From an uncultured Candidatus Poseidoniales archaeon (GTDB lineage: Archaea > Thermoplasmatota > Poseidoniia > Poseidoniales > Thalassarchaeaceae): 35,978 nucleotides of DNA. A program made the position numbers and the translations under genes. The notes under the pieces were generated by a model, which was given only the letters and a program-made list of their open reading frames with translations, searched no databases and was not told the DNA's origin. This document shows positions 7,651 to 29,041 of the stretch, piece after piece. Every line of letters begins with the position of its first letter. Within the stretch, counting starts at the first letter, position 1. Location: NCBI GenBank assembly GCA_902573015.1, contig CACGIE010000012.1, forward strand, positions 1 to 35,978, given 5' to 3'.

Positions 7651-8262
7651 ATGAGAAGGAAGGTGGATTCGAGAACAGTATGGTCCCTAACGGCGATCAG
7701 GAACGGCAAGCAAGAGAATGCAGATGAGATTGAGAATGCTCAGTTCTACTACGGTAGGTGGCAATCAGAGGTTGATGGCTCTAGGCCCAAGAGACTCCCA
7801 AGCGGACTAATTGGGGTGATATGTGAATCCGGGATGGAACAAACTGCCATGGAGTCGGGTTTCGTAATCTCGATGAGTGTCTCTCCAGAAAATCGTGATT
7901 ACTGGACACGTTTCGTCTCCACAATCACGGTCAGGGAAATGGACAGCAGGCTCTTCCACGATACTCGGACACTTTTCTCTAGAGATGGGGGCGATATGGA
8001 CACAATCGAGTTCGTGGACCTGTTCAATCCATGTGCAGGTGGCATGCGCATGCCGAACAAAATATGGATGAGGGTAGACGAGCTCCCGATGAGCTCAATC
8101 GGATGGGCGATGAGTTCGGGTCTGATGGATGGTGAGAAGAGCAGGCAGACCGACCTCAGCAGGTGGATTGGGAAGCCGAAGGACAACGAGGTCATCCCCA
8201 AGGACATATTGGCGCTGCCAGGGCCTCCCAGCAGGGCGTACTCATTCGATGACACCGACTAG
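7651..8262 (+). CDS. Hypothetical protein convergent with the RNA polymerase
   Basis: A 203-residue protein of unknown family. The start is set at the ATG at 7651 because AAGGAG lies about ten bases before it and the promoter-like motif lies 37 bases before it. The frame is open further upstream, but that part would read through the motif and looks non-coding. The protein begins with a basic stretch and has mixed alpha/beta composition (SGLIGVICESGM, FVISMSVSPENRDYW, MDTIEFVDLFNP), with no membrane segment or metal motif. Its last bases overlap the end of the polymerase gene by four bases tail-to-tail, so transcription of one could affect the other. Confidence 0.7.
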   Translation: MRRKVDSRTVWSLTAIRNGKQENADEIENAQFYYGRWQSEVDGSRPKRLPSGLIGVICESGMEQTAMESGFVISMSVSPENRDYWTRFVSTITVREMDSRLFHDTRTLFSRDGGDMDTIEFVDLFNPCAGGMRMPNKIWMRVDELPMSSIGWAMSSGLMDGEKSRQTDLSRWIGKPKDNEVIPKDILALPGPPSRAYSFDDTD

Positions 8263-11200
8263 CTGATTAGGTAGTCCCCAGCGGTCCTTCCGGACTTTTC
8301 GGGGTCTTTCCAGAGAGAGCCTATCTTGACCCTACTTGTCTTCTTCTTGCCGACCCACTTCATCTCTGCGGTCCAATCGTTCAGGCTCCTTCCCTGGTGC
8401 ATATCGAAGAATACGGATTTCACTATCTCCCTCATCAGGTCGATGTCGCATGCATGGGTCCCGAAGGCATCGTGGACCGCCCAGAAGCTCAGATGGTCGT
8501 CCTCGCTCATCATCGTCCTCATCCTGTTTATCGAGGTCCTCATGTGGTATGCGTCGAGGGAGTGGACGAAGTTGGGGGGCATCGAGGAGTTCATCTTCCT
8601 CTTCCTTCCCTTCACCCTCTCCTTCTCGAATTTGCTGTAGTTTGGTATGGAGTACTCCCTCTGCCTCATTAGCCCTAGTATCTCTTTGGCCTCTTTGCTA
8701 TCTCCTCCGGCCTGTCTGACGATCGTCTCGAAACGAAGGCTCTCGAAATTGAACCTCTTCCCCTTTTCCAGTATTCTGTCTTTGGCGTCCCTCAGGAACT
8801 TCCTTGCCTCGGGCGCCAGTGATTCGTCCTCTTCGTACAGCTCGCAAGCCCTGAGTGCTATCCTCGCCTTGCTTTTTCCACCTTTGTGCCCCATCCAATT
8901 ATTCTTCTTGTACCAATCTGGTAGCAGACCGCTGTAGACGGAGCCGATGTGGGTTGGCTTCCCTGCCTTGGTCTTGTCAGCCCCATCCCGGCCGATGTAG
9001 TACTGGTGAACCCTGAAGCTCCCCTCATCCCCTGGCATGACGTCCCAGTACACGCCGGGCCAGAGCGCCGGCTTGCATGCCTCCGTAACTGCCCCGAGGG
9101 CCTCCTCGAGCTTTCCGTAGGCGTCTCTCGTCGCCTTGCCTATCGCCTTCATCATGATGTCCTTCATCAGAAGAGAGAGGCCGTGCTGATGCTCCCATAG
9201 ACTACCGTCAGGGTAGGCGAAGAGCTCGGCCAGATCGCCCCCTTTCGCAATTATCGCATCGTGGAGCCCGCTTCCCTGTGCCCAGAGGTTCACTGGCACC
9301 TCATCCCTGAGTAGCTTGGCCCACTTGTCGGCTCTCCCCTTCGAGAAACCACTTCCTACCTTCTTCTTGGCATGCTGCTGGTAGTGACTGACGGGCAGTC
9401 TCTCACCCAGTCTCCTCGCCTCTACAAATTCCAGATACGCCTCCTCGAACTCGACTGTTATCTCCTTCCTCTCGGCCTCCTCCTCCTCGCTGAGAACTCT
9501 AGGGAGCGGCATCGAGAAGTCAGGCCTGCCCTGTCCCTTCCTTCCCTCAAGGCACTTCAGCATGTCATTGCTGCCATAGACCCTGACGATTGTGGGTTGC
9601 TTTGCCAGGCTCCTAGTGAAGATCTTCTCTAGGCACTCCTCTATCAGGGACTCCTTGACTCCTATCTCCCCGAGGAACTCGCGAATCTTGTCTCTTCCGG
9701 CCTTATCCGCCTCCTTAGCCACCTCCGAGTACAGATCCAGTGGGCCCCTTCCCGAGTCGATGACGTTCGTGAGTCTGGCGAGCCTGACGTCACCTAGAAG
9801 CGAGGCCACGTGCTGGTAGCCATTGCAGGACGCATCGAGATAGACGGGCTGGCCGCTCTCGATGCTCTCCCACCCCTCGCCCTCGCCTCTTTCGAACTCG
9901 GACCACACCCTGTCCAGCTCGATAAGTGAGGCTAGCCTCTGGAAGTCAGTCCTCTTGCTGTACATCCTCTGGTCCAGTCCCAGTTCTACCAGGTACTGAT
10001 CCGGATGCCTGCCAATCTCCCTGAGTAATTTGAGGTTCTCTGTCACCCATTCGTCCCTGTACTCAAATTTCTGGTTCTTCTTGGCAGGGCCACTCTTCCA
10101 CCTCGAGGAGCGATTTCCGCCGTCATCAGGCTTGTCGAGGACCTCGATGCCCTCCATCAGGTTGTGGACATGGACATGGAACCAGAACCTGCCCCTCTCC
10201 CCCATGGGTTTCCATTCCTTGAAGCGCAATAGTGCTCTGCTAAGATCTCCCTTCTGCGGGCTTAGCAGCTGGCACCTCGGTACCATCCTCCCTCTGAAGT
10301 CGCACATCCAGGAGTGCCAGAAGACGTTCCCATTGTGTTCGATTATCCTCCTGCACCACTCGAGTACCATTCTCCTCTCGACATCGCCATTGTCCCCCTT
10401 CCCATCGAAGAATGCGGGTTCAAAAACCCCTTTTGGCATGATTCTCTTTATCCTGTCCTCCTTGTCCACCAGTCCGCCATCCAGGACAGTACCTCCGTCC
10501 ATCTGGAAACTGCAAACCTTCTCCAAAAGGTCTAGGTTGATTTCCCATTGGGTTTCTTGCAGTGTATTCATAGCCCTCATGATGTCGACTCCAGGCACGC
10601 ATCTCACGGTCTTGGCCATCTTCGGAACATCTCCTCCCATCTCTACCTCTCCCGTCTCGAGGTTCCTGACCTCCACTTCGAACATCTCGTAGTCACTTGT
10701 GTTGCTCGATATCTTGCGATCCCTCAGTAGCCCTCCAGCCCTGATTCCGCCCAACCACTCGTGCTTGTCCGGGGGGCAGTACATCCACCTATCTCTATCG
10801 CCTCTGAGCCATCTGTAGATGGCATTCTGGCGACCTTCCTCGAAGTCCTCCATTTTCGACTTCCCAATTATATCCTCGAGCTTCTTGGTGAACACGAGGT
10901 TGTTTGGGTATGGCTTTGGGCCCCTGCTCTTCGCCAGGGATTCGTCACCATCGAGGTAGTAGGACGTGTATTGCGCTGGAGTCATCTTCGCCGGGCGCAG
11001 TAGGCGCTCCCTCTTCATCTCGATAATAATGTTGTAAACGAACTTGAGGGTGTTGTGTTCATTGCATTCTTCGACGTTCTTGCTCTTCCCTACTCCTTGC
11101 AGGCTCCCGAATCCCTTGTTCCTGAATCTCTCCAGGGCCTCTTCTTCTTCTTCCTCCAAAGCGAACTTCTTCTGATCAAGACCCGCTTCCTTCCTCTTCT

Positions 11201-12461
11201 TCTTGTCGCCATATATCTCCAAAGCCTTGGCTCCCTCGCTCTCGATGTGCCTCCTAACTCTGGTCCTGACGTCTGGGAAGAAATTGATCCCAGCAGCCCA
11301 CACAAACATCCATCTCCACTCCCTCGGAGGCTCGACTTCCTCATCCAACAGTTTGGCTATCGTCATTCTGATTCGCTTCCTGTGGTGGAGGACGCTGAGG
11401 TTGGCCCCCATCCTCTCACGGTGTTTCTTGATCCTATCACGATCGATTTCACCCGTCTTACTGTCCGCGAAGTCTTCGGTGAATTCCTTCCTGGCCCTTT
11501 TTGCAGACACGAAGCACCCATTTGCCTTTGCGAACTCGAATAGCTGCTTCCCCTCGTTCACGTCCGAGCGCCATTCGAAGACCTCCCTATCTTCAGCCAT
11601 GGTGTTCGAAGAGTGGGAAATCAGGCACCTGGCCACCTCGTTGGCGACCTTCTCGACCACGTTCATCCTCCCATCCATCTTCCACCAATCCTCCAAGTCT
11701 ATCGATTGGTGGAACCCCTTGTCGAGCTGATCGAGGTGGAAGTCCCGCGCACTGGGTTCCAACCTGCCATTGATCTTCCGGATAACCGAAAGCTGCCTCC
11801 CCTCCATGCATTTGGTGGAACCAATTATCCTTTCATCGATTATCTCCTCTATCTTCTTCCGCACCCTCTCCCATGATTCGAGTGCCTCCTCTCTCTCCTC
11901 GTTTCTGTCCTCGTTCGAGAGGAACTTCGGGGAGGCCTCTCCTGCCGCGGCCTCCTCCACCTTGTCCTGTATCCAGGTTTTGAACTCGAAGTGCCCTGGG
12001 GTAAGGTCAGACTCCTCCCTGAGCCTGATTCTCGCCGGCTCGTCGTCTATCGACTTGGTCCTGTTGTCATTTTTGTCGTAGAAACCGATCTTCCTGAGCC
12101 TCGAGCTCTTCCATGTTCTCCAACCTCGTGATGCCCCCTTCGGTGGGGGAAGCCTCTTGCCCCGTTCGTAATTCCTGGAGAAGTAAGATCCGATCTTGTC
12201 CCTGTTAGTCGAAGCCTCGGGTTCAAACTCATCCTCTTCTTTTATCGGATCCTCATAGTCTACGTAGACCCCTTGCTTATTCGTGTAACTGAGCCTCAGT
12301 CTCGTCGAAGCGCCACATTCTCCACACTTCCTCACAGAGTCCCATTTGCTGTACACCTTACCCTTCTTCTTAGCATTCTTCGGTAGCGATAAGGAGACTT
12401 CGAATTTGTAGTCGCAGCGCCAGCAGACTATGCCATGGGTTCTGGACGTTTTCCCCGCCAT
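8259..12461 (-). CDS. Single-subunit (T7/mitochondrial-type) DNA-directed RNA polymerase
   Basis: A 1400-residue protein carrying the key polymerase motifs of the single-subunit family. Motif A is LDASCNGYQHVASLL with the metal-binding Asp876 (T7 Asp537). Motif B runs RSLAKQPTIVRVYG, with Arg950, Lys954 and Tyr962 at the same spacing as T7 Arg627, Lys631 and Tyr639. MPPNFVHSLDAYHM matches the T7 segment PNFVHSQDGSH. Motif C is VHDAFGTHACD with Asp1331 (T7 Asp812). The tyrosine in motif B is the residue that favours ribonucleotides in this family. The N terminus adds a zinc ribbon (Cys13, Cys16, Cys46, Cys49) and about 650 residues I cannot assign. At 1400 residues it is much longer than T7 polymerase (883) and nearer in size to mitochondrial enzymes. 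It is expected to transcribe the element's genes. Its own gene has a host-like TATA box and no AACTTGCAA motif. All catalytic residues are present and the frame is intact. Confidence 0.95.
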   Translation of the reverse strand: MAGKTSRTHGIVCWRCDYKFEVSLSLPKNAKKKGKVYSKWDSVRKCGECGASTRLRLSYTNKQGVYVDYEDPIKEEDEFEPEASTNRDKIGSYFSRNYERGKRLPPPKGASRGWRTWKSSRLRKIGFYDKNDNRTKSIDDEPARIRLREESDLTPGHFEFKTWIQDKVEEAAAGEASPKFLSNEDRNEEREEALESWERVRKKIEEIIDERIIGSTKCMEGRQLSVIRKINGRLEPSARDFHLDQLDKGFHQSIDLEDWWKMDGRMNVVEKVANEVARCLISHSSNTMAEDREVFEWRSDVNEGKQLFEFAKANGCFVSAKRARKEFTEDFADSKTGEIDRDRIKKHRERMGANLSVLHHRKRIRMTIAKLLDEEVEPPREWRWMFVWAAGINFFPDVRTRVRRHIESEGAKALEIYGDKKKRKEAGLDQKKFALEEEEEEALERFRNKGFGSLQGVGKSKNVEECNEHNTLKFVYNIIIEMKRERLLRPAKMTPAQYTSYYLDGDESLAKSRGPKPYPNNLVFTKKLEDIIGKSKMEDFEEGRQNAIYRWLRGDRDRWMYCPPDKHEWLGGIRAGGLLRDRKISSNTSDYEMFEVEVRNLETGEVEMGGDVPKMAKTVRCVPGVDIMRAMNTLQETQWEINLDLLEKVCSFQMDGGTVLDGGLVDKEDRIKRIMPKGVFEPAFFDGKGDNGDVERRMVLEWCRRIIEHNGNVFWHSWMCDFRGRMVPRCQLLSPQKGDLSRALLRFKEWKPMGERGRFWFHVHVHNLMEGIEVLDKPDDGGNRSSRWKSGPAKKNQKFEYRDEWVTENLKLLREIGRHPDQYLVELGLDQRMYSKRTDFQRLASLIELDRVWSEFERGEGEGWESIESGQPVYLDASCNGYQHVASLLGDVRLARLTNVIDSGRGPLDLYSEVAKEADKAGRDKIREFLGEIGVKESLIEECLEKIFTRSLAKQPTIVRVYGSNDMLKCLEGRKGQGRPDFSMPLPRVLSEEEEAERKEITVEFEEAYLEFVEARRLGERLPVSHYQQHAKKKVGSGFSKGRADKWAKLLRDEVPVNLWAQGSGLHDAIIAKGGDLAELFAYPDGSLWEHQHGLSLLMKDIMMKAIGKATRDAYGKLEEALGAVTEACKPALWPGVYWDVMPGDEGSFRVHQYYIGRDGADKTKAGKPTHIGSVYSGLLPDWYKKNNWMGHKGGKSKARIALRACELYEEDESLAPEARKFLRDAKDRILEKGKRFNFESLRFETIVRQAGGDSKEAKEILGLMRQREYSIPNYSKFEKERVKGRKRKMNSSMPPNFVHSLDAYHMRTSINRMRTMMSEDDHLSFWAVHDAFGTHACDIDLMREIVKSVFFDMHQGRSLNDWTAEMKWVGKKKTSRVKIGSLWKDPEKSGRTAGDYLIS

Positions 12462-12543: not shown

Positions 12544-12558
12544 AACTTGCAATTAATG
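12544..12558 (+). promoter_or_regulatory. AACTTGCAA promoter-like motif, copy 3
   Basis: AACTTGCAA, then TTAAT, then a G at 12558. The predicted transcript would begin with GAGGT, as would that of copy 7. The G is the first base of a perfect hairpin. Confidence 0.68.
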
Positions 12559-12577
12559 AGGTGGGCTTGCCCACCTC
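12558..12577 (+). promoter_or_regulatory. Perfect 9-bp hairpin at the predicted 5' end of the operon mRNA
   Basis: GAGGTGGGC and GCCCACCTC pair perfectly around a two-base loop (TT); a real RNA would open one or two pairs. The stem starts exactly at the proposed first transcribed base and ends 14 bases before the ATG at 12592. It could protect the 5' end or act as a regulator-binding site. Confidence 0.55.
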
Positions 12578-12591
12578 AAGGATGTGAGAAA

Positions 12592-13059
12592 ATGAAAGAT
12601 GGAAATGATATGGATAAAAACGGCAGTGTCGTGCTGCCAGAACTAACAGATGATGACAGAGACAGGGCTGAGAGCGAGGATAACTTGGCGTGGGCATATA
12701 GCCTGATGGAGTGGTACTCCCATGGAGCAGTGCACAAAGCGGAGGACCTTGGTTTGGTCTTCCAGGTGATAAAGGACCCAGAGTCGGACGAGTGTGGAAT
12801 CCGGGTCCTCTCCGCCTTTGAGGCTGAAACCTGCCTCACGTTCCTAGCCATGTTGGAGAGGACCTTCGTAAAGGCCCACTACAAGGTCGAAATAGAGCCC
12901 TACTTAGTTCTCCGTCCCTACACGCCGGCACCAGCCCACTCGCCCAGCTTCATGGTCGAAGAGCAAAATCGCGAGGATGAAGAGAACCCTCGGGAAGTGA
13001 GTGCTTCTGAGTCGCCTAAGGGGGGTACTGAGAGGCCAATAGCGATGGAGGTGGTCTAG
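12592..13059 (+). CDS. Hypothetical acidic protein, first gene of the ubiquitin-like module
   Basis: A 155-residue protein from the ATG at 12592. An in-frame TTG at 12547 lies inside the promoter-like motif and is unlikely to be used. The sequence is strongly acidic at both ends. The middle looks folded and helical (NLAWAYSLMEWYSHGAVHKAE), followed by VLSAFEAETCLTFLAMLE and a beta-rich HYKVEIEPYLVLRPY. The last 40 residues look disordered. No family is recognised. The next gene starts directly after its stop, so they form one operon; a GGAGGTGG just before this stop serves the next gene. Confidence 0.65.
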   Translation: MKDGNDMDKNGSVVLPELTDDDRDRAESEDNLAWAYSLMEWYSHGAVHKAEDLGLVFQVIKDPESDECGIRVLSAFEAETCLTFLAMLERTFVKAHYKVEIEPYLVLRPYTPAPAHSPSFMVEEQNREDEENPREVSASESPKGGTERPIAMEVV

Positions 13060-13634: not shown

Positions 13635-14563
13635 GGGAACTTGCAAGTGGGACGATGAAGATTGAACCACTTGATTCGGAACTGTACCAAGACGCGACCA
13701 CTGGGAGCTGGTTGCAGAGGGGCGGGTCCAGAATCGGGAAACCAGACGAGATAGACACCTCTGTACACGGAGAGTCCCCTAGGGAGAAGGCTCTGAGGAG
13801 ACAGGCCGTCACAGAGACGCTAGCCCCGCTGGACTTGCTTATCCAGATGCCACCTCCCGAACTGAGGGGTCTCGAACTCCTCCTCGACGTCCTCTCCTCA
13901 TGCGAGTCATTTCGCGTCACCTCAAGAGGGGGCGGCCTGGTAATCTGCAGACTCGACGAGGATGTGGATATCGAGATTCGAGTCGAGTACATGATAAGGG
14001 CGAGGCTCGAGATTCCCTGGGAGGGAAACGACTCTCTTAGCGGACTGCGCCCTCCCAACGATTTGCATCTGGCTTGCTCCATGCAACTAGTCGACAGCGA
14101 GTCAAGATGGCTGGCGGTGAATAACCACGGGAAGGATCGGGTAAGGGTGTGCCTGAGTAGCTACTACAGACTCTCTCCCGCAGAAGGCCGGAGGTGGGAT
14201 TGGGAGGAATATGACCTCCAAATCGAACTTGGTCAAGGGCCTTGGATGGAGGATCCTAGAACCGGGTTGTCGGTTCCAGATCTCGCTGCTCTCCTCCCTG
14301 TTACTGACTCCATCGTGTCATGGGCCCTCTGGGCCCAGTCCGGTTTCCCAAACCCCCCGGAATCGTTCATACTCGCCTACGAGCAACTGACCTCTCCCTA
14401 CGCATTCGATGGGTGCCTGCCAGAGTACATGACGGATGAGAACGGCTGGGAACCGTGGGACGACGAGTTCCAACAATCCATTTTCTGGGAGAGGCTTCTG
14501 GAGTCGGGGACCAGAGCCAGGAGGCACCCACAAAGAACTTGCAATGTCAGTGTCAGTGGTTGA
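13631..14563 (+). CDS. Unknown protein, possible E2-like (UBC/RWD) partner A
   Basis: A 310-residue protein whose ATG overlaps the previous stop. A second ATG at 13655 sits nine bases after an AACTTGCAA motif, so both starts may be used. Features that recall an E2 fold are a hydrophobic beta region (VDIEIRVEYMIRARLEIPW), then HGKDRVRVCLSSYYR with a candidate catalytic Cys174 seven residues after a histidine, then a helix SIVSWALWAQSGFPNPPESF that resembles the segment after the E2 active site. The next gene is a relative, sharing RGL-x-LL-x-VL near the start and VTD...WA-x-SGF. An E2 is expected in an operon with E1, ubiquitin-like and JAB genes. This is inference: no HPN box or proline-rich YP-x-x-PP loop is clear. 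Confidence 0.7.
   Translation: MRELASGTMKIEPLDSELYQDATTGSWLQRGGSRIGKPDEIDTSVHGESPREKALRRQAVTETLAPLDLLIQMPPPELRGLELLLDVLSSCESFRVTSRGGGLVICRLDEDVDIEIRVEYMIRARLEIPWEGNDSLSGLRPPNDLHLACSMQLVDSESRWLAVNNHGKDRVRVCLSSYYRLSPAEGRRWDWEEYDLQIELGQGPWMEDPRTGLSVPDLAALLPVTDSIVSWALWAQSGFPNPPESFILAYEQLTSPYAFDGCLPEYMTDENGWEPWDDEFQQSIFWERLLESGTRARRHPQRTCNVSVSG
13638..13646 (+). promoter_or_regulatory. AACTTGCAA motif, copy 4 (weak context)
   Basis: The nonamer lies at the very start of the gene at 13631, nine bases before an in-frame ATG at 13655. The following bases (GTGGG) are not AT-rich and the sixth is A, so it lacks the other promoter features. It may be a weak internal promoter or a coincidence. Confidence 0.3.
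14536..14550 (+). promoter_or_regulatory. AACTTGCAA motif, copy 5
   Basis: The nonamer runs into the ATG at 14544 (its last A is the A of ATG), inside the end of the preceding gene. A G does occur six bases on at 14550, but the five intervening bases (TGTCA) are mixed. If transcription begins at that G, translation would need a downstream GTG or ATG. Confidence 0.4.
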
Positions 14564-15353
14564 GGAATCGGTAGAAGAGAGAAGGCGGATGAACGAGTGG
14601 ATGGCCATCGAGGCCAACTTGGCCTCGGAGGATCTGAGGGAGATGATGCCCAGGGAGGAATGGAGGGGGCTCACGCTTTTGGTCAGCGTGCTGCACTCCT
14701 CGAAGGCATGCACCTCCATCGAGAGGGGGCGCATCGTGGCTCTGTATGACAGGGAGGTCGAGGTAGTCCTGATGTTCGAGTCGATGCTGATCAGGCGCAT
14801 AGACTGGCTAGCAGCCAACTCCAGTACTAACCCGCTGGTAAAGCCAGATTGCCACTTGCAAATCATCGTCAGGAGGAGATCGACAATGGCTGGACGGATA
14901 CTCCATCCGCATGAGAGGGACCTATGGAGCACCTCCCCGTGCATCGTAGCCACCGGTGCCGAGGGGCTGCCAGTGACGGACCTAGCCTCCTCCTTCGTAC
15001 TATGGGCTGACTCCGGTTTCCAACGTGAGCCCGAGACCCTGGTGGAGCAGGTCGCTTTAGTCAAGGGACCCGAGTCGTACGAAGAATTCCTCGAGGATAA
15101 GAAGCGCAGGGACAGGGAAAAGCGGCGCAGCCTCGAGAATCTCAGGAGGCGGTCCGTGATGGAAGCCACAAGGAGGCACCACGAGGAGGAGGGAAGGCGA
15201 CTCCTCCAAGACGAACTGGACCGAATCAGCGCCATGGGCTGGAGGGAGTTGATTCAGATGGAGAGGGATCTCTCAAATTCCCCCTGGGGGGTGAACCAGA
15301 GCATCAGGGCCGCGTCACAGGCGATATTGTATCCAGAGGAGAGAGAGATATGA
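14544..15353 (+). CDS. Unknown protein, possible E2-like partner B with coiled-coil tail
   Basis: A 269-residue protein overlapping the previous gene by 20 bases. It is a relative of that protein: EWRGLTLLVSVLHSSKACTS and VTDLASSFVLWADSGFQREP match its RGLELLLDVLSS and VTDSIVSWALWAQSGFPNPP. An E2-like reading is possible: strands VEVVLMFE and CHLQIIVRRR, then HPHERDLWSTSPCIV with candidate Cys133, then the helix. The last 90 residues, from LEDKKRRDREKRRS onward, are highly charged and likely coiled-coil. The longer upstream frame is rejected because it would lie inside the previous gene. No Shine-Dalgarno sequence is visible. The next ATG (15350) overlaps its stop. Confidence 0.7.
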   Translation: MSVSVVEESVEERRRMNEWMAIEANLASEDLREMMPREEWRGLTLLVSVLHSSKACTSIERGRIVALYDREVEVVLMFESMLIRRIDWLAANSSTNPLVKPDCHLQIIVRRRSTMAGRILHPHERDLWSTSPCIVATGAEGLPVTDLASSFVLWADSGFQREPETLVEQVALVKGPESYEEFLEDKKRRDREKRRSLENLRRRSVMEATRRHHEEEGRRLLQDELDRISAMGWRELIQMERDLSNSPWGVNQSIRAASQAILYPEEREI

Positions 15354-15409
15354 TTCGGGAGTTCAAATACTTAGCATCCACAATTAGAAACATCGAGGAG
15401 GTACGGATT

Positions 15410-15631
15410 ATGGAAAACGACAGAACAACCACCACGGTCGAGATCGCTGACCAGTCCGGGCACTCCACGCTGCAACTGACGAAGGAAGAGACTCTCGAGA
15501 GAGTCTCGGACTCGCCAGGAGCGTGGGTCTTCGCAAACAACCAGATGGTACAACCCGGACAGCTGCAGAATGCTGACTGGGGCACCATTGGTACTGTGAG
15601 GATTGTGCCCGGTCTCGTTGGCGGGGCTTGA
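15410..15631 (+). CDS. Ubiquitin-like protein 1, ends Gly-Gly-Ala
   Basis: A 73-residue beta-grasp protein from the ATG at 15410, which follows GAGGTACGG; an in-frame ATG at 15350 overlapping the previous stop would add 20 residues. The order of elements matches ubiquitin: strand TTVEIADQSG, strand STLQLTK, helix start ETLERVS, then WVFANNQMVQPGQL at the place of LIFAGKQLEDGRTL, then GTVRIVPGLVGG at the place of LHLVLRLRGG. The C terminus is Gly-Gly-Ala, so one residue must be trimmed before E1 could activate it. A JAB protease in the same cluster could do that. A near-identical paralogue follows. The start choice is supported by alignment with that paralogue. Confidence 0.88.
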   Translation: MENDRTTTTVEIADQSGHSTLQLTKEETLERVSDSPGAWVFANNQMVQPGQLQNADWGTIGTVRIVPGLVGGA

Positions 15632-15782: not shown

Positions 15783-15825
15783 AGGTAAACAAATGATAGA
15801 ACATTCGAGAGAAGGAGGTAACCAT

Positions 15826-16044
15826 ATGGACACAGAGATAACGACAACTGTCGAGATCGCTGACTCCACCGGGCACACCACCTGCCAGATGACGAAGACT
15901 GAGACCTTGGAGAAGGTCTCTCAGTCACCTGGCGCGTGGGTCTTCGCGGGTGGCCAGATGGTGCAATCCCAGCAGCTGGAAACAGCAGACTGGGGCACCA
16001 TAGGCACCGTGAGAATAGTACCTGGTCTGGTCGGCGGCCTGTAG
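15826..16044 (+). CDS. Ubiquitin-like protein 2, ends Gly-Gly-Leu
   Basis: A 72-residue paralogue of the preceding ubiquitin-like protein. AAGGAGGTAACC before the ATG at 15826 fixes the start; the in-frame ATG at 15793 would add 11 residues. It keeps the ubiquitin plan: TVEIADSTG, ETLEKVS, WVFAGGQMVQSQQL (compare LIFAGKQLEDGRTL), GTVRIVPGLVGG. It ends Gly-Gly-Leu, again needing removal of one residue. It has its own promoter-like motifs, so the two paralogues could be made in different amounts or at different times. Candidate conjugation lysines are few (two), which may limit chain formation. Confidence 0.88.
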   Translation: MDTEITTTVEIADSTGHTTCQMTKTETLEKVSQSPGAWVFAGGQMVQSQQLETADWGTIGTVRIVPGLVGGL

Positions 16045-16151: not shown

Positions 16152-16166
16152 AACTTGCAAATTAAG
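16152..16166 (+). promoter_or_regulatory. AACTTGCAA promoter-like motif, copy 8
   Basis: AACTTGCAA, then ATTAA, then a G at 16166. That G is the first base of GTGATGAAAATG, so the transcript would carry only a three- or nine-base leader before an ATG. Confidence 0.65.
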
Positions 16167-16168
16167 TG

Positions 16169-17380
16169 ATGAAAATGAACAAAGATAACAACGTGGCCAT
16201 CGGTTGGGCCTGCAGGTCCCTCGAAGAGAGAGAGCTCTTCGGTGAAGGGCCGAACAAGAACGGAGGAGGCCCACATGAGTGTACAGAGGAGTCAATGTGC
16301 TCCTGGTGCAGTATGAAGGAGGAAACCATGGGAAAGTGCCTAAGATGCGGGGGGTTCACAGGCCTCGACTCCTTGTTCGATGATGATGGGTGGAGAAAAT
16401 CAGGTTTTGAGAAGCCGTCTGCAACCTGCTGCGAATATTTCGAAATGAGCGATGAAGAATGGGAGGCATGCAAAGAAATACAGTTGCTAGACAGAGAAGA
16501 CAGAAGGAAAAGAGCGGAAAAGGAATACCTAGAGGACGGGATCGCCCTAATTGGGAGCTTGAAGCACCCATCTCTAGATGCCCACAACAAGTCCATCGAT
16601 CTGTGCATCTCATCCTTGACTGACATATTCAACTCGGGAGAGCCAAGTTATCAGAACTGCCTAGAATCGCATAAAATCCTCGGAGTCGCTGGGAGTCCAC
16701 CAGTATATGCGCGCTCAATCATCAGTGTGCATGAAACTACTACCGACTATCAGAGGAACGATGGCGAAATGCGTATGGAAATCTCGTTCAGAGGAAAGGA
16801 GTCGGGCATAACATACAGGGTCGAACTAATCTATGCCCGTAACAATGCCAAACATCTGGCATCTCGTATAGACGAGGTCTTGGACGCGAACTCCTCATAT
16901 CCAGTCTCGGACGGTGTTCTGAAAGGCTTCATCAAGGCCACCGATTTCTTGAGGTTCCAGGTCAGCAGAGTCTCGAACGGAGGTGGGTGGGATTACCTAT
17001 GCATAGACCCGGGCGAGGATTTCGGTTTGTGGCCGGGAGATAGCGTGGCCGCGCTCCTAATGTGCCTCCACGATGACCTTAACACGGCTCTGGAGCCAGC
17101 GATGTACACTCTCAGAGGAGGTCTCAAAGAAGCGAGCAAGATGGCCTTCCTGAAGGGGAGATCCAAACTATCGATCCATAGGCTGATGGCATACGAGGTG
17201 GCGTACAACAGCATCAGGTCAGCGACATCTTCCATGCCCGCTGATGAGGTCTATGCACTGGTCTCTAGAATAAAGGAGAAGTTCTCAGATCCAGACTACG
17301 CTAGAGATAGACCGCCTGCCGAGGTCGATTACGGGTTGTTGCAGGAAGAGGCATGGGAAGGTGAGTGGAATGGCCATTGA
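16169..17380 (+). CDS. Unknown protein with N-terminal Cys cluster, in the ubiquitin-like operon
   Basis: From the ATG at 16169 the protein is about 403 residues; a GTG at 16166 and an ATG at 16175 are also in frame. Near residues 31-58 a likely zinc site is present (HECTEESMCSWC and CLRCGG). The middle is helical and charged. Around residue 270 the segment YLCIDPGEDFGLWPGDSVAALLMCL has a Cys before a W-x-P-G and a helix, loosely like an E2 active site. The same pattern recurs in the 641-residue protein at 20425-22350, so it is more likely a separate shared domain. The E1 gene start overlaps its end by 11 bases, which implies a linked function. Confidence 0.72.
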   Translation: MKMNKDNNVAIGWACRSLEERELFGEGPNKNGGGPHECTEESMCSWCSMKEETMGKCLRCGGFTGLDSLFDDDGWRKSGFEKPSATCCEYFEMSDEEWEACKEIQLLDREDRRKRAEKEYLEDGIALIGSLKHPSLDAHNKSIDLCISSLTDIFNSGEPSYQNCLESHKILGVAGSPPVYARSIISVHETTTDYQRNDGEMRMEISFRGKESGITYRVELIYARNNAKHLASRIDEVLDANSSYPVSDGVLKGFIKATDFLRFQVSRVSNGGGWDYLCIDPGEDFGLWPGDSVAALLMCLHDDLNTALEPAMYTLRGGLKEASKMAFLKGRSKLSIHRLMAYEVAYNSIRSATSSMPADEVYALVSRIKEKFSDPDYARDRPPAEVDYGLLQEEAWEGEWNGH

Positions 17381-18065
17381 AGCGGAAAAGAGAGAGTTCT
17401 CAGTAAACATCGTAGGCGCTGGAGGTATAGCCAGCTGGGTTTTGCACGGCCTAATCAGACCGGCCAGACGCTTCGCCCAAGTGACCGGCTCCAGTGTTAC
17501 CATCAGAGTATACGACTCTGACAGTGTGGATGACGACAACGTGCATCACCAGAACTTCCGACCATCAGACGTGGGTAAGACGAAGGTCGATGCACTATGC
17601 GGCGAGCTGTCAGAGTTCCAAGGCGATGAATTCTCCCTGGTCGCGTGCGAGTGGGACGTCAGAAGGGAGTCCGACTTCGAGGAAGCGGACCTGACCGTCG
17701 TCGCAGTCGACTCCCCGGACGCACGAGAGCTGGTCACCAAATCGAAGAAGTCGGGCAAGTGGGCAATCTGCACTTGCGCTGGCGACTCCTTCATGTTCCT
17801 GACCGAGGAGTCCTCCAAGCAGGCAGTCTCTATGGTCATAGAGAATGCCCAGAAGGGCGCCTCGTGCCAGTTACCCGGGGCGATATCCGAGGGTAAGATA
17901 GAGGCCGGAAACATGGCAGTCGCAGCAGTGGCACAGACCTGGGTCCTCCGCTCACTGAGAGGGATGTCAGGGGAGGAAGGGGCGAAGGTCCCGGTCTCTC
18001 GAGCGGAATCCACAGTCCTGGGGACTCTGGGAGTGCTGTCCGAAAGCGAGGGAGGGGGGATATGA
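17370..18065 (+). CDS. E1-like ubiquitin-activating (ThiF/MoeB-type) enzyme
   Basis: A 231-residue adenylating enzyme. The ATG at 17370 is preferred because AAGGTGAG precedes it; a GTG at 17361 is the alternative. The Rossmann ATP site is IVGAGGIASW (residues 14-23). The E1 signature follows: YDSDSVDDDNVHHQNF, then DVGKTKVDAL, supplying the Asp, Asn, Gln and Lys that position ATP and Mg. Candidate active cysteines are Cys166 in GASCQLPG and the pair in ICTCAGDS. The protein has only the adenylation domain, like prokaryotic E1 proteins in ubiquitin-like operons. It would adenylate the C-terminal Gly-Gly of the two ubiquitin-like proteins after trimming. The JAB gene overlaps its stop by four bases. 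Confidence 0.92.
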   Translation: MAIEAEKREFSVNIVGAGGIASWVLHGLIRPARRFAQVTGSSVTIRVYDSDSVDDDNVHHQNFRPSDVGKTKVDALCGELSEFQGDEFSLVACEWDVRRESDFEEADLTVVAVDSPDARELVTKSKKSGKWAICTCAGDSFMFLTEESSKQAVSMVIENAQKGASCQLPGAISEGKIEAGNMAVAAVAQTWVLRSLRGMSGEEGAKVPVSRAESTVLGTLGVLSESEGGGI

Positions 18066-18559
18066 TGCAGGCAGAAACCGACGTGACTCCTTTTCTACAC
18101 GACCCACTCGAGGTACAATCTGCTATCGGCTCTGGCAATCTGGGATCGAGAGTCCTCAAAGAGACCATCGCTGGACTGGCTAAAGAGTCAATGTGGCGGC
18201 AGCTATGGCTAGTCGCTGACTCCCTGTCCCGCGAGGTCAGCGTCCTGTTCGACAGGGACGGAAGGATATGGGTGGACATAGGGACGGCTGGACAAGTCAG
18301 GCTCAGCCCGCCGGTCGGTGCTACCATTCCATTCTCGCTCTGGATACACACCCACCCATGGGACGCGTACTGGAGTCAAACCGATCTCTCCACCCTCGCC
18401 TCCTACTCCAGGATTTTGGACAGCGCGCTGGTCCTCGGTCACGACCACATGAAGTCGACCACGAAGGCCGAGGGGGATTGCGAGAGACTAGGGCCAAGGG
18501 CGCCCCTGTCAGTTTGGACATCCGAGGAAGTGAGAACCTACGAAGAGGAGGGGGCCTAG
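18062..18559 (+). CDS. JAB/JAMM metalloprotease (deubiquitinase-like)
   Basis: A 165-residue protein with the JAMM zinc site: Glu58 (in SREVSVLF), then HTHPWDAYWSQTD, giving His96, His98, Ser105 and Asp108. The spacing between HTHP and Ser is one residue shorter than in Rpn11-type enzymes, a variation allowed in prokaryotic members. It probably removes the final Ala or Leu from the ubiquitin-like precursors or cleaves conjugates. Its ATG overlaps the E1 stop (ATGA) after a G-rich Shine-Dalgarno stretch, so the two are coupled. Confidence 0.9.
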   Translation: MMQAETDVTPFLHDPLEVQSAIGSGNLGSRVLKETIAGLAKESMWRQLWLVADSLSREVSVLFDRDGRIWVDIGTAGQVRLSPPVGATIPFSLWIHTHPWDAYWSQTDLSTLASYSRILDSALVLGHDHMKSTTKAEGDCERLGPRAPLSVWTSEEVRTYEEEGA

Positions 18560-18800: not shown

Positions 18801-18937
18801 TTGAGAAGCCCCTTCAGGTACCGAAAACACACCCCCAAGGGCGACTTTCCGGGCAACCTTGAAGGGCCTCAATCCCGACGCTCGGAGTCCCGCTCCGTAG
18901 CGACCGAAAAACAATGGGAAAAAACAGAGGAGGAGTG
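18801..18937 (+). ncRNA. Possible structured leader before the TFB-like gene
   Basis: This GC-rich stretch has two pairings. CCCTTCAGG (18810-18818) pairs with CCTTGAAGGG (18857-18866) with one bulge. CGCTCGGAG (18879-18887) pairs with CTCCGTAGCG (18893-18902) with one bulge. Similar ACCGAAAA sequences follow the left arm of the first stem and the end of the second. It could be a leader, terminator or small RNA; pairing by eye only. Confidence 0.3.
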
Positions 18938-19885
18938 ATGAAAATGAACAGAAAGAGAGACGACGGAAAGTGCGAGGTCTGCGGCTCCACCAAGAGGGTT
19001 GAGGGGCAGACCCACTACATCTGCGATGGATGCGGATCCCAACTGGAAGAACTGGAACCAGATCCCGGTTTCTTGCCAGAAGGGCAGACCCCAACAGTCC
19101 TCAGGGACTCGGTAGACCGCAACCACCTGGGTAGCTGGATCGATCCGTCCGGGGACAAGGCATCGGAGAATTTCCGCAAGAAGCACATGGCGGCATCATA
19201 TCGGAAGCCACGATTCATAGACATCATAGTCAGGGAGCTCGTGAAGAAGTGCGGAACAGGCAACTCTTCCCAAGATGCCGCAAGGCTCCTCATCGAAGTG
19301 GATTCCAAGGAGAGACTAGGGGCGGTAAGGAAGAAGAGGAGGGGAGCCAAGGGGATGGGCAAGGAGGAGTCCAAGCAGTACAGGGCCAGGGCGTTCGCAG
19401 CCGCCGCACTGCATATTCTCAACTCCAACGGCCACTCGAACACCGCACCTCAGGCGGCGAGAGACTGGGGTTTGGTCTACTTGGACTTGGCATCGGCAAT
19501 CAGGACCCTCAGGAGCAACATCACGGAATTAGAGGGCACCATGAGGGAGAAGCCATCAGCCCTCAGGTCACGTCAACTGAGGCACGAGTTGGGCAGATTG
19601 AGGAGCTTCCTGCATGAGCAATTCGACATGGCTGAAGTCGACCGGATAATAGAGGCTGCAAGTAGGATACTTTTGGACGAGGGAGAGCCATTAGGAGCAA
19701 ACGATCAATGGCTGACCGGGCGATTCTGCAACGTCCCATCGCCCAGAGCTGCATTCGAGGCCACGGTCACAGCGATGGCGGGCCTGGGCCTCCCTCTCAG
19801 ATGCGCAAGGAGGCTTTACGAGAGACTCCCAATAACGGGAATGGCATACTTCATGGAGAGGTGCTCCGGACTGTTCGCCCACTAG
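18938..19885 (+). CDS. TFB/TFIIB-like transcription initiation factor (divergent)
   Basis: A 315-residue protein from the ATG at 18938, chosen because GAGGAGGAG precedes it; an upstream ATG at 18914 adds eight residues. The N terminus is a zinc ribbon CEVCGSTKRVEGQTHYICDGCG with the C-x2-C, about 15 residues, C-x2-C spacing of TFB. After a linker, HLGSWIDPSGDKASENFRKK recalls the TFB segment before the core. What follows is helical with YRARAFAAAALHIL and a second helical region (VDRIIEAASRILLDEG), consistent with two cyclin folds. Archaeal TFB bridges promoter DNA and RNA polymerase. This divergent copy could redirect host polymerase or help the element's own polymerase. Other zinc-ribbon helical proteins cannot be excluded. 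Confidence 0.72.
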   Translation: MKMNRKRDDGKCEVCGSTKRVEGQTHYICDGCGSQLEELEPDPGFLPEGQTPTVLRDSVDRNHLGSWIDPSGDKASENFRKKHMAASYRKPRFIDIIVRELVKKCGTGNSSQDAARLLIEVDSKERLGAVRKKRRGAKGMGKEESKQYRARAFAAAALHILNSNGHSNTAPQAARDWGLVYLDLASAIRTLRSNITELEGTMREKPSALRSRQLRHELGRLRSFLHEQFDMAEVDRIIEAASRILLDEGEPLGANDQWLTGRFCNVPSPRAAFEATVTAMAGLGLPLRCARRLYERLPITGMAYFMERCSGLFAH

Positions 19886-20424: not shown

Positions 20425-22350
20425 CTACAGTATTTCCCGATCCATCCTAGGAAGAAGCGCAGAGGGGCCGGGGTTCTCCCTCTCGAAGTAGGTCCACAGC
20501 TGCCTCTGGATCAGCATTATCCTCTCGTCCACCATTAGCTCGGGCTCCAGGATCTGGCTGATCTCCCTGACGACCTCCCCCAGATCCCTCTCCCCAGTCC
20601 CGGTCCTGATGTAGATTCGTTGCTCGCCGCGCACTCCCTCTTCTATCTGGTCCCTTACCCAGCCGGAGTCCTCCAGCATCCTATATATCGCCCTCCTCTC
20701 CGCCATGTTTCTGGTCCTGAACTGTGTCTGACACCCATCGAAAGTGATGTTCGGCCCGTCACCCCTGATCGCTCCGAAGGACATCCTCTCACCGAGAGGC
20801 AGCCTCAGCAGGGCCCCCCATAGGAGGGGGAATGACTCGGTGTACCGACGTACCCTGTCAGCGACCCTGTTCTGCCTGAGCCTCCTCCTAAACCACCTAG
20901 CCTCGTTCATCTGCGCTATCTCGGGGTTGGCCCTCTCCTGATCCTCCCTAGTCCTCCTGGAGATGTGGTTCCTCAGCGTGTCGATCCTACTCCTCGAGCT
21001 CATATCGTCCAGCAGAGCCATTACCACGCTAGAGACCGCATCTCCTGCCACGAGCCTCTTCAGATCGCGCGTCTCGACTATGCATATTGGTGGCGAGTGA
21101 CCCCTGCCTCGGACAGCCTCAGCATCCGCCGCACTGTTCCGCCCTGTCGGCCAGACTGAGAATCGAGACCCATGGCCTCCGTTCCCTGGCGTCACCAGGT
21201 AACTCAGCCCCGATGTCCCAGTCACCTTGATGGACTTCAGTCCCGGGTCTATCTCAGCCCTCTCGCTAGACTCAACTACGCTCCTGAGTAGTCCTATTCC
21301 TCTCTTTTCGTCTGGACCTATCATGGGTGAGTCGGAATCGGCGAAGATACTCTGCTGGATGCAGGTAAGCCTCTGCCTCTGGGGGTGATTTGGAGGGGAT
21401 AGGGCCCAGGTGACGATCTTCGACCAGATCAGTGGGTGACTGCCCACCTCCAGCTTCCTCCATCCGTGACTCCTACGGACCCTCAGTTGCAACCTCCCTC
21501 CCTTGCTGATGAACAGGCTTTGCGGCACTGTGACAGAATCACGTGCGCCGGGCCTGGCGAGCTCCTTGTTCTCGCCGACCCATTCCATCCATCTCCCCAT
21601 CCACTCGGTCCTCTCCACGGCTTCTAGGGGAATCTCCTCGATTCCTCTTGAGTGCCTCCTTGCCATCATGGCAGCCCATCTGTCGGTAGGAGCACTACCG
21701 AACAACAACATGTGAACCGGATGCACGAGGGAGCTCTTGTCCGTCAAAGGCCCTGCTTCGAATCCATTGAAGCGCTTCAGTGACAGGCTTATCGAGAACA
21801 GGATCTTCTTCCAATCCACCATGCTGACATCGAAGTCGCTTTTCAGGATCTTGCTGAGGCCGAGGAAGGGGACCGCTATCCTCACGCCATCGAGGTAGAA
21901 GCATCCTGAGGCCCACGACAAATGACTCCCATCCGGAAGAATTCCTCCGATCTGGAGCCTCCTCCTCTGCTCCAGAGGTGGCCTCTCCCCTCCGGGGTTA
22001 GAGAGATACCGGACATCCTCCTCTAACAATCTCCACTCGCGGGGCTGATCCGTAATCCGCTCCTGCCTGGTGGGGGACGAGTTCCAGCACCAGTCCCCCT
22101 CGGCCCCTTTGGAATCCCTTATCCGGCTCCAGATCTGCTGGGGCCGCGTCCCCGGATCTCCAAGGAACCTCCTGATCCTGTCGATGTCCTTCTTGCTGGA
22201 TATCTCGTCTATCCGCTGTCCTGTTATGCAAGGCACCATGATTCTGCAGTATTCGCACCACTCCTCCGAACGAGGTAGGTAGTTTATCATCGCACCACTG
22301 CTAGCAGAGGAGCTATCCAGGATAGAATTACAGCAAACGCAACGCGACAT
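20425..22350 (-). CDS. Large unknown protein with N-terminal zinc ribbon
   Basis: A 641-residue protein. Cys residues at the N terminus (CVCCNS at residues 4-9, then CEYC near 32-35) form a likely zinc ribbon. The body is rich in Arg and Trp and has no domain I recognise. Near residue 440 the segment SPPICIVETRDLKRLVAGDAVSSVVMALLDD, ending in a TLR motif, resembles part of the unknown protein at 16169. The two share an IC-I, an acidic/loop stretch, GD-x-V, a hydrophobic helix, LxDD and TLR pattern. The basic character and zinc ribbon suggest nucleic-acid binding. No AACTTGCAA motif precedes it. Perhaps a structural or replication protein of the element. Confidence 0.75.
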   Translation of the reverse strand: MSRCVCCNSILDSSSASSGAMINYLPRSEEWCEYCRIMVPCITGQRIDEISSKKDIDRIRRFLGDPGTRPQQIWSRIRDSKGAEGDWCWNSSPTRQERITDQPREWRLLEEDVRYLSNPGGERPPLEQRRRLQIGGILPDGSHLSWASGCFYLDGVRIAVPFLGLSKILKSDFDVSMVDWKKILFSISLSLKRFNGFEAGPLTDKSSLVHPVHMLLFGSAPTDRWAAMMARRHSRGIEEIPLEAVERTEWMGRWMEWVGENKELARPGARDSVTVPQSLFISKGGRLQLRVRRSHGWRKLEVGSHPLIWSKIVTWALSPPNHPQRQRLTCIQQSIFADSDSPMIGPDEKRGIGLLRSVVESSERAEIDPGLKSIKVTGTSGLSYLVTPGNGGHGSRFSVWPTGRNSAADAEAVRGRGHSPPICIVETRDLKRLVAGDAVSSVVMALLDDMSSRSRIDTLRNHISRRTREDQERANPEIAQMNEARWFRRRLRQNRVADRVRRYTESFPLLWGALLRLPLGERMSFGAIRGDGPNITFDGCQTQFRTRNMAERRAIYRMLEDSGWVRDQIEEGVRGEQRIYIRTGTGERDLGEVVREISQILEPELMVDERIMLIQRQLWTYFERENPGPSALLPRMDREIL

Positions 22351-23279: not shown

Positions 23280-24497
23280 TTGATTGATGGTCTAGAACGG
23301 CAGGCCATGAGTTGGGCTCTGTCATTCCCTCCGAGAAAGTGGCAGGAGACGGGTCTCTCAAAGTGGTCTGAAAACGGGCTACGAGGAATCTGTAAGGTTG
23401 TGACCGGCGGCGGAAAGACGTTCTTCGGTATGATGTGCATCCTCCGTCTACTCGAGGAGAAACCGGATTCCAGAGTGTTGATCATTGTCCCTACTCTGGC
23501 ATTGAGGGATCAATGGGTATTGGATATAGAGGAGGGCATCGGGGCTTCCTCGGACGAGATATACTCCCACGGCTCTGACAGGAAATTGCTAGACGGTCAT
23601 AGGATCGCGGTGATGGTGATTAACTCGGCTAGGAAGGAGGCGGAGAAGATTAGCTCAGAGGGCGAGTGGATGCTGATCGTCGATGAGTGCCACAGGGCCG
23701 CATCCGAGGAGAATCGAAAGTCCATGAGGGGCAATTGGATTGCCACGCTAGGCCTTTCTGCCACGCCTGAACGACAGTATGACGAGTGGTTCGAGGAGTT
23801 CCTAATTCCCAACCTAGGCTCGATAATTGCGGAATACGACTACGTTCAGGCCAAGAAGGACGGAGTGATTGTGGACTTCGAGCTGAGGAACTACAAAGTT
23901 CCACTCACAGAATCAGAAGAGTCCAGAATGACGGATCTCAGCAGGAAAATCGCTATCGAGAGAAGACGCCTCACCTCTCAGGGGCTCCAAACATCCGATC
24001 AACTGTTGAATCTACTGATGCAGAGGTCTAGGACCTCCCAAAAGGCAGAGAACAGAATCCCAATGGCAATTGCAATCTGTAGGGAGCACATCGGTAGAAG
24101 GATTCTAGTTTTCCACGAATACATAGAGCCTGCTGACCAGCTTGTCCGGATCCTAGACGAATACGGATTCAGAGTTGCCGCGTATCACTCCAAAGTTGGC
24201 GATCAACTAAGGCTCACTAACCTGAAGATGTACAGAGACGGCTTGATAGACGTCTTGGTGACTTGCAGAGCCCTGGACGAGGGACTGAACGTCCCCAACA
24301 CCGAGGTTGGAATGATCGTGTCTTCAACAAAATCAACTAGACAGAGGATACAGAGGATGGGGAGGATTTTGAGAACTGCAGAGAACAAGGATTTGGGAGT
24401 CATAATCTCACTATTCACATCTCACGAGCAGGAAAAAATGGTCGAGGAATCGACATTATTGGAAGAAGTATCAGAGGTAAAATGGTTCGGTGTCTGA
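23280..24497 (+). CDS. Superfamily 2 DNA helicase
   Basis: A 405-residue helicase from TTG at 23280; an in-frame ATG at 23307 is a good alternative. Motif I is VTGGGKT (about residue 41), motif II is VDECH (about 135), motif III is LSATPE, and motif VI is QRIQRMGR. RILVFHEYIEPADQL marks the second RecA-like domain. The compact form with DECH is like helicases of restriction and XPB-type systems. It overlaps the next gene by eight bases and starts a tightly packed set. The predicted role is DNA translocation or unwinding in a defence complex. Confidence 0.88.
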   Translation: MIDGLERQAMSWALSFPPRKWQETGLSKWSENGLRGICKVVTGGGKTFFGMMCILRLLEEKPDSRVLIIVPTLALRDQWVLDIEEGIGASSDEIYSHGSDRKLLDGHRIAVMVINSARKEAEKISSEGEWMLIVDECHRAASEENRKSMRGNWIATLGLSATPERQYDEWFEEFLIPNLGSIIAEYDYVQAKKDGVIVDFELRNYKVPLTESEESRMTDLSRKIAIERRRLTSQGLQTSDQLLNLLMQRSRTSQKAENRIPMAIAICREHIGRRILVFHEYIEPADQLVRILDEYGFRVAAYHSKVGDQLRLTNLKMYRDGLIDVLVTCRALDEGLNVPNTEVGMIVSSTKSTRQRIQRMGRILRTAENKDLGVIISLFTSHEQEKMVEESTLLEEVSEVKWFGV

Positions 24498-25341
24498 GAT
24501 GGTGAATGAATTTATTTGCAAGGGCGAGAAGTTTGAACCCACCAAGGTGGAGAGCGAATATCATTTGGAGAGGCTTATTCTAGAGAATGCAGACTCTCTT
24601 TTCCCTAATGCCTATATTTTTGACTTCAAAGTTAAGGCATACACTAGTTTGGGCCATGGAACCAAGCCTGATCTTTGCCTTGTCTCACATGACTGTACGA
24701 AATGGTGGATTATTGAGGTAGAGAGATCGAAAAATAACTCCTACGCTAGAACAATACAAAAGCAGGTCTCAAGGCAACAAGATGCGAATTGGCACGCCGT
24801 CACAGATCAAGTAATCTCGGAACTAATAGTGTTGGGAGCCTCAGCGGATCTCGCGGAAAACGTCAAATCTGCAGATCCAGATTTTATCCTACTCTATGAT
24901 GAGGAGGATGAGAACATCTCAGACATTGCTAAAGAACACGGCTTCAAGAGGATTATTCTCAGGCCGTATCTAAGCAATAAGGGGAATTACGCTTTAGTAC
25001 CAATTTTGCAGGAGGTTTGTCCGTTGCCATCAGAAATCAATACACTCAGAGTAAACCCCAAACTAACGAAGGTCGTCGCAGGGAAGCTATGGGTGCCTAT
25101 CCCGTCCAAAACGGAAAAAAGAATTGGCAATAGAAAGATAGTAGTAAACATCGATAACCAGAACTCATTCGTCCATATCAATCCCAAAGGTATTATCCAA
25201 GTTCCAATGTCTACGGACGATGATAGCGAATCTCATCGTGTATTTTATAGGGAGTTGAACTGCACTTTCGACATAGACGAGGACCCCGAAAACGTGATTC
25301 TTAGTTTTAGAGAAGAGAGGATGTGGAATTTTGACGACTGA
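24490..25341 (+). CDS. Probable PD-(D/E)xK nuclease
   Basis: A 283-residue protein (GTG at 24490, or ATG at 24499). Residues near 57-80 read GTKPDLCLVSHDCTKWWIIEVERSK. This gives the Asp, then Glu-x-Glu at the end of a hydrophobic strand, that typify the PD-(D/E)xK fold; HLERLILENADSLFP upstream would be the first helix. Later parts are beta-rich. Setting between helicase and MORC ATPase suggests the cutting subunit of a restriction-like system. The gene is more AT-rich than the ubiquitin-like module. Confidence 0.65.
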   Translation: MSEMVNEFICKGEKFEPTKVESEYHLERLILENADSLFPNAYIFDFKVKAYTSLGHGTKPDLCLVSHDCTKWWIIEVERSKNNSYARTIQKQVSRQQDANWHAVTDQVISELIVLGASADLAENVKSADPDFILLYDEEDENISDIAKEHGFKRIILRPYLSNKGNYALVPILQEVCPLPSEINTLRVNPKLTKVVAGKLWVPIPSKTEKRIGNRKIVVNIDNQNSFVHINPKGIIQVPMSTDDDSESHRVFYRELNCTFDIDEDPENVILSFREERMWNFDD

Positions 25342-28974: not shown

Positions 28975-29010
28975 TAAATCGACGATTTCATAATAACGAA
29001 CGAATTGTAA

Positions 29011-29020: not shown

Positions 29021-29041
29021 TCACAACTTCACACAGCAATC

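Follow-up and report, generated by a model that had tools for sequence, protein, structure and literature searches.

A probable ubiquitin-like conjugation system in Poseidoniales archaea, in some loci joined to a chromosomal single-subunit RNA polymerase

The window analysed here, a stretch of 35,978 nucleotides, is the whole of contig CACGIE010000012.1 (C12) of a 1.08-Mb archaeal draft genome, 63% complete, from the order Poseidoniales. It carries genes for two ubiquitin-like (Ubl) precursors, an E1-like activating enzyme, a JAB protease and E2-like proteins, together with a single-subunit RNA polymerase. The locus is read, with a probability of roughly 0.72, as a self-contained Poseidoniales Ubl conjugation system, present here in a form that is coupled to a chromosomal single-subunit RNA polymerase. 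Since the kit is found in about half of the order and the polymerase in only a few members, we take the tagging system as the main finding; the polymerase is a partner that recurs but is optional. The principal features are as follows.

8259..12461 (-): single-subunit (T7/mitochondrial-type) RNA polymerase, 1400 aa; Pfam RNA_pol, 2.2e-43
15350..15631 (+): Ubl precursor 1, C-terminus PGLVGG then A; from the Ubl alignment, family fold predicted as beta-grasp
15793..16044 (+): Ubl precursor 2, C-terminus PGLVGG then L; residues 14-82 are the domain that was folded
16166..17380 (+): E2-like protein, domain at about residues 177-308, motif YLCIDPGEDFGLWPGDSVAALLMCLHDD; from a profile match
17370..18065 (+): E1-like (ThiF-family) activating enzyme, ATG start, alternative GTG start at 17361; from Pfam ThiF and invariant residues
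18062..18559 (+): JAB/JAMM metalloprotease with E58, H96, H98, S105 and D108
20425..22350 (-): E2-like protein whose domain (20908-21324) has the invariant Cys in PPICIVE; Cys-x2-Cys pairs in the N-terminal part

The E1 has the features by which ThiF/E1-like enzymes are recognised, namely the GxGGxG ATP loop, the acidic/Asn/Gln/Lys signature and the catalytic Asp. It matches Pfam ThiF above the cut-off (7.6e-13), and the top match of its profile in the PDB is Uba1 (1.7e-9). Residues G16, G18, G19, D49, D51, N57, Q61, K72, D114 and C166 are unchanged in 79 of 79 relatives, and Cys166 (in ASCQLPGAI) is the candidate catalytic cysteine, which would form the thioester. The JAB shows the zinc-site pattern of JAMM proteases (E...H-T-H-x7-S-x2-D), with E58, H96, H98 and D108 unchanged in 79/79 relatives and S105 in 78/79 (one row ambiguous). 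The window JAB has no Pfam match; its relatives match Prok-JAB at 0.03-0.065, and the best PDB match of the JAB profile is to AMSH-like ubiquitin proteases (E 0.004). In the window the E1 and JAB open reading frames (ORFs) overlap by four bases (ATGA, 18062-18065). A scan of the JAB alignment against 84,980 prokaryotic genomes gave 83 relatives, 80 of which were kept, and most of the records are named Poseidoniales, Poseidoniaceae, Thalassarchaeaceae or Euryarchaeota. E1 lies immediately before JAB, overlaps it or is fused to it in 80/80 named contigs, far above chance, and single-ORF fusions with E1 first are found in L056, L059-L062 and L064. Four loci have bacterial titles (L054, L057, L058 and L063; Acidimicrobiaceae or Acidiferrobacter), yet fall within one archaeal family in the E1-JAB tree; as they nest among Poseidoniales, they are probably misnamed or come from mixed bins.

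The window Ubl proteins have no Pfam match and are beta-grasp modifiers by predicted fold. The AlphaFold2 model of the precursor 2 domain has a predicted local distance difference test score (pLDDT) of 87.3 and the beta-grasp order of elements. With this model, Foldseek returns SUMO, the ubiquilin UBL and Mth1743, and VIA-align returns MoaD, SUMO and ISG15 at Z 5-6, the top chain being a MoaD-type molybdopterin subunit and TtuB also being among the entries. In a profile search of the PDB, ubiquitins are best, with GG aligned to GG; the single-domain E-value is only 0.2-1, small summed E-values stemming from tandem copies. GG is conserved in the tails; in relatives it ends the protein or is followed by one or two residues or by about 19. 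L090 has two near-identical tandem Ubls, and Ubl-GG-Ubl-GG-E1 fusions are found in L035/L072, L071, L077 and L128. These tail variants, tandem copies and fusions imply processing after GG. At L067:8560-8802 and in L068-L070, TFB-like genes are close to genes of Ubl-like proteins with the C-terminus VVAGRA or MVAGLV.

The proteins at 20425-22350 and 16166-17380 share a domain with many relatives, in which a Cys stands in the pattern x-C-I-x(7-12)-LP-x-GD. This Cys is invariant in 20/20 aligned sequences and precedes a helix, where E2s keep theirs. Against a profile built without it, the 16166-17380 protein scores E 0.0018 and 9.2e-4, and more strongly with an iterated profile. AlphaFold2 models the 20908-21324 domain with pLDDT 88.5 and a predicted template modelling score of 0.83, as a helix, four strands, the Cys loop and further helices, which is the UBC order. 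Of 50 entries listed by VIA-align, 49 are chains of E2s or ubiquitin E2 variants (UEVs), the remaining one being a kinetochore complex subunit. Together with the invariant Cys, this uniform list makes an E2-like (UBC) fold of the predicted domain likely, not proven. The window E2-like proteins have no Pfam match, and no E2 was found when their profile was compared with PDB sequences. The canonical UQ_con model gave no match, and none for its controls either.

In the initial annotation, which covered the E1, the JAB and the two precursors, the ATP loop and Asp/Asn/Gln/Lys signature of the E1, the residues Glu58, His96, His98 and Asp108 of the JAB and the four-base overlap were all read correctly. 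It described a nearly full conjugation-deconjugation set; the Ubl, E1 and JAB part of this holds, but "nearly full" understates the set, since the same cassette contains E2-like proteins that had been overlooked.

Co-occurrence was assessed in 243 genomes of Poseidoniales (Marine Group II). JAB is found in 115, Ubl in 109 and E2-like proteins in 127; all three are present in 99/243 and none in 111/243, with Fisher odds ratios of 108-305, the p values being inflated by relatedness. The E2-like family accompanies Ubl in 107 of 109 genomes, and in a phylum-wide sample it was found only inside Poseidoniales. In G002, a single contig of 2.06 Mb, the parts are dispersed, hundreds of kb apart: a tandem di-Ubl adjoins an ATPase gene (apparently for a clamp-loader subunit), E1-JAB adjoins a 3-hydroxyacyl-CoA dehydrogenase, and the gene of a 797-aa E2-like protein is convergent with a TFB-like gene. 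In G106, from the genus of the window, the set is accompanied by a TFB-like gene and two E2-like genes, with no polymerase in view. G132 has, besides a polymerase cassette, another JAB and Ubl at a different place. The full cassette of the window recurs in L055, a record titled Poseidoniales isolate AG-457-A01. A binning artefact is unlikely, as polymerase and set occur together in AG-457-A01 and in AG-461-G23 (L090), records that look like single-cell genomes, and G002 is one contig. A Ubl system divergent enough for Pfam to miss is found in an archaeal order abundant at the ocean surface, and its polyubiquitin-like tandem genes and varied E1/E2/JAB arrangements form a large natural series for the assembly of a ubiquitin cascade.

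The polymerase keeps all the T7 catalytic residues of motifs A, B and C (D876, K954, Y962 and D1331, corresponding to T7 D537, K631, Y639 and D812), and its profile finds T7 RNAP in the PDB (2e-59). Relatives occur in 18/243 order genomes. In the polymerase tree, the chromosomal Poseidoniales enzymes (n=21) group together in a single clade, separate from phages (100/99), and among the genomes searched, including the phylum-wide sample, this clade is found only in Poseidoniales. A phage or provirus origin was rejected on this separation and on two negative searches: JAB has no match in IMG/VR, and neither E1 nor JAB has a match in plasmids. No capsid or terminase was seen among the window ORFs. 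Genome G236, a Poseidoniales bin, is contaminated by podophage contigs (L038 and L039) that encode an RNA polymerase of their own.

Within the subclade of the window polymerase (n=14), the set is present in 11 loci, and a contig end cuts the other 3. The sister subclade (L032, L033, L034 and L037) is without the set, and L035 and L128 have shorter polymerases with the set present. G047 has no match to JAB, Ubl or E2-like proteins. The sister-clade polymerases at L032:6758-12109, L033:5427-10646 and in L037 are each followed by a 411-493 aa partner. A search for polymerase, E1 and JAB neighbourhoods, as the initial annotation had proposed, found ten named contigs in which polymerase, Ubl, E1, E2-like protein and JAB stand together, in both families of the E1-JAB tree. 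The join that it reported is thus real and repeated, but the polymerase that it called phage-type is not phage DNA and lies in a clade of its own. It had held that loci with the polymerase and without the set would indicate a chance neighbourhood; such loci exist (L032, L033), the set being the commoner of the two (115 vs 18 of the 243 genomes). With a sister clade that lacks the set and a set far commoner than the polymerase, the join is non-random but optional; it is real, repeated and old. A catalytically intact single-subunit polymerase in archaeal chromosomes, repeatedly beside a Ubl set, would be a second kind of archaeal cellular transcription enzyme. A literature search brought up no description of the Ubl system and none of a single-subunit polymerase encoded in an archaeal chromosome, an absence that is no proof of novelty.

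The remaining features of the cassette and its flank are listed below.

12547..13059 (+): o12547, conserved protein of polymerase-type loci without a Pfam match; tblastn finds relatives next to the polymerase in L023 and L042
13305..13634 (+): o13230, conserved small protein whose relatives begin MWIFT; tblastn finds relatives next to the polymerase in L023, L024, L029, L030 and L042
13631..14563 (+): possible divergent E2-like protein, unproven; profile E 0.059, under inclusion
14436..15353 (+): possible divergent E2-like protein, motif PCIVATGAEGLPVTD; profile E 0.007, relatives in L024 and L025
18561..18800 (+): JAB partner of about 80 aa, ORF families 2 and 16; tblastn relative in L024
18914..19885 (+): TFB-like protein with a TFIIB-type zinc ribbon; Zn_Ribbon_TF, 0.0028

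In most relatives the gene after JAB encodes a protein of about 80 aa (family 2 in 47 loci and family 16 in 11, 58 in total). The relatives of the TFB-like protein match Zn_Ribbon_TF more strongly (9.5e-6 in L054, 3.5e-7 in L227 and 6.8e-7 in L228), and the TFB-like and E2-like genes are neighbours both in the window (18914-19885 and 20425-22350) and in the unlinked G002 locus.

The analysis shows the genes, their linkage, the invariant residues, the predicted folds and the co-occurrence; the chemistry of each step, and what the targets are, we infer. JAB would trim the Ubl precursors after Gly-Gly, taking off one residue here and cutting longer tails or head-to-tail fusions in relatives. E1 would then adenylate the Ubl tail and form a thioester, probably on Cys166, before the Cys of the E2-like protein carries the Ubl and lysines are tagged; JAB would also take the Ubl off again. 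Transcription proteins are proposed among the targets, because TFB-like genes adjoin the E2-like gene in the window and in G002, and the polymerase variant may be an accessory module for transcription that has stayed with a tagging set of its own. A bolder version is possible though doubtful: that Poseidoniales have a complete, widely inherited Ubl system, with poly-Ubl genes and divergent E2s, which in some members works with the single-subunit polymerase and a TFB paralogue as a Ubl-regulated second transcription machinery.

Several points weigh against a conjugation system of this kind. The E2 assignment rests on a predicted fold whose structural scores are modest: UBE2H is the first Foldseek match but a weak one (E 0.83), and the best VIA-align Z is only 5.5. 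A comparison by hhalign of the E2-like profile with three eukaryotic E2s places Cys on Cys and is not significant (p 0.033). No E3 was identified. Four relatives have Ubl-like proteins that end in MVAGLV or VVAGRA, without Gly-Gly. In most Poseidoniaceae loci E1-JAB stands apart from the Ubl and E2-like genes, so an operon arrangement does not hold throughout. What the polymerase does, and the link of the system to TFB, are guesses from position.

Since the window cassette has an AriA/AriB-like (PARIS) pair on one side and restriction-like genes on the other, defence is the main rival for the purpose of the polymerase variant, not for the chemistry. The polymerase-type cassette would then act against viruses or plasmids, in the manner of CBASS E1-E2/JAB or Bil, with Ubl tagging phage or host proteins and the polymerase as effector or sensor. 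Bacterial E1/E2/JAB systems do act in defence, polymerase loci are patchy (18/243), and the cassette of G132 is additional to a second JAB and Ubl elsewhere. However, the wider set is a chromosomal trait widely shared in the order, the polymerase loci L025, L029 and L035 lie among housekeeping genes, and PADLOC gives no match for JAB and only a weak E1-E2 match for E1 (3.3e-5), so that a defensive purpose is unlikely. A known defence system was rejected on the same PADLOC results, the polymerase having no match either.

The E2-like domain could instead be a non-catalytic binder of RWD/UEV type, with conjugation passing from E1 to target directly, as with SAMPs, or through an unknown E2. Its top VIA-align match is a UEV, TSG101, and the bacterial row-6e systems have RWD-like domains without Cys (PMC1779556). 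The invariance of the Cys (20/20), at the E2 position before a helix, makes this quite unlikely. UEVs are without this cysteine.

A little less probable again is a sulfur-carrier pathway like that of ThiS, MoaD, Urm1 or TtuB, in which E1 adenylates the Ubl to give a thiocarboxylate for thiolation of tRNA or a cofactor and JAB is only a trimmer. The E1 is of the ThiF family, MoaD and TtuB are among the structural matches of the Ubl, and archaeal Ubls often serve both sulfur transfer and conjugation. However, an E2-like family with an invariant Cys tracks the Ubl in 107/109 genomes, no sulfurtransferase or biosynthesis gene is found among the ORFs listed for cassette loci, and tandem Ubls with JAB suit conjugation and deconjugation better. 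That the polymerase and the set are two independent accessory genes brought together by chance at a variable site is very improbable: polymerases without the set exist (L032, L033) and genome-wide presence of polymerase and JAB is unassociated (Fisher p 0.33), but the two lie within 10 kb in 6/10 sampled genomes with both, where about 1% would be expected for each (20 kb out of 1.5 Mb), the polymerase loci repeatedly contain relatives of o12547 and o13230, and 11/14 of the window polymerase clade have the set, the other 3 being cut by a contig end.

Complete archaeal ubiquitin-type systems are already known from Aigarchaeota and Asgard lineages. In the Caldiarchaeum and Asgard operons, a ubiquitin-like protein is trimmed after GG by a JAMM protease and is accompanied by E1 and E2 (PMC6043591, PMC5654768). 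The Poseidoniales set, as read from its genes, would share this plan. However, those operons have a eukaryote-like ubiquitin, an Rpn11-like JAMM protease and a RING E3, whereas in Poseidoniales the Ubl and E2-like proteins are too divergent for Pfam, the E1 is of ThiF size and no RING E3 could be recognised. One Marine Group II single cell was reported with a UCH deubiquitinase and RING E3s (PMC4327156), a different set from Ubl, E1, E2-like protein and JAB.

Among bacterial operons, type 6d of Iyer 2006 comprises a Ubl with a C-terminal Gly, an E1, an E2-like protein with Cys, and JAB (PMC1779556). Like PRTRC/type 6d, the Poseidoniales set has a small Ubl with a C-terminal Gly, a stand-alone E1 (nearest in NCBIfam to PRTRC_ThiF), JAB and an E2-like protein with a conserved Cys. 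It differs in lying on an archaeal chromosome instead of a plasmid or integrative and conjugative element, in an E2-like protein of a different family with zinc-ribbon-type cysteines, and in its GG tail, tandem and fused Ubls, and TFB-like and polymerase partners. Membership of PRTRC, to which the initial annotation had likened the genes, was rejected: the E1 alone shows a resemblance, scoring 62.5 bits where the PRTRC_ThiF cut-off is 144.75, and PRTRC proteins A-F gave no match for the nine other cassette proteins scanned, a scan that left out the polymerase, o12547 and o13230. Repeated Ubls and a JAB/E1 fusion are shared with type 6e of Iyer 2006 (1-3 Ubl repeats with JAB-E1), but in Poseidoniales the fusion order is E1 then JAB, the E2-like Cys is kept, and the hosts are archaeal. 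With CBASS Cap2/Cap3 and Bil the set shares the E1/E2/JAB logic; unlike them, it has no cyclase or effector pair, and its PADLOC matches are weak (E1) or lacking (JAB). The polymerase resembles T7-like and mitochondrial enzymes in its palm and fingers motifs and catalytic residues, and differs from them in belonging to an archaeal chromosomal clade, apart from phage polymerases, of proteins mostly of 1200-1500 aa with a long N-terminal region.

Three Poseidoniaceae loci (L221:3857-5637, L224:7125-8291 and L225:4884-7139) have a tandem Ubl gene adjoining an ATPase gene that looks like a replication-factor-C-like clamp-loader subunit, and this neighbour is a hint of a replication target. Elsewhere in the window, an AAA ATPase and DUF4435 pair at 4920-7339 resembles AriA/AriB of PARIS (PADLOC 3.7e-17 and 2.2e-5), and a restriction/defence-like block at 23280-31609 holds a PbeA-like helicase, a HATPase protein, a DpdB-like protein (weak) and an N6 methyltransferase. 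In the polymerase loci L029:1629-2324, L030:9681-11194 and L023:1236-1646, an ORF of dual-specificity phosphatase type (by motif only) adjoins o13230, and L030 additionally has a Ser/Thr-phosphatase-like ORF (again by motif only) next to it.

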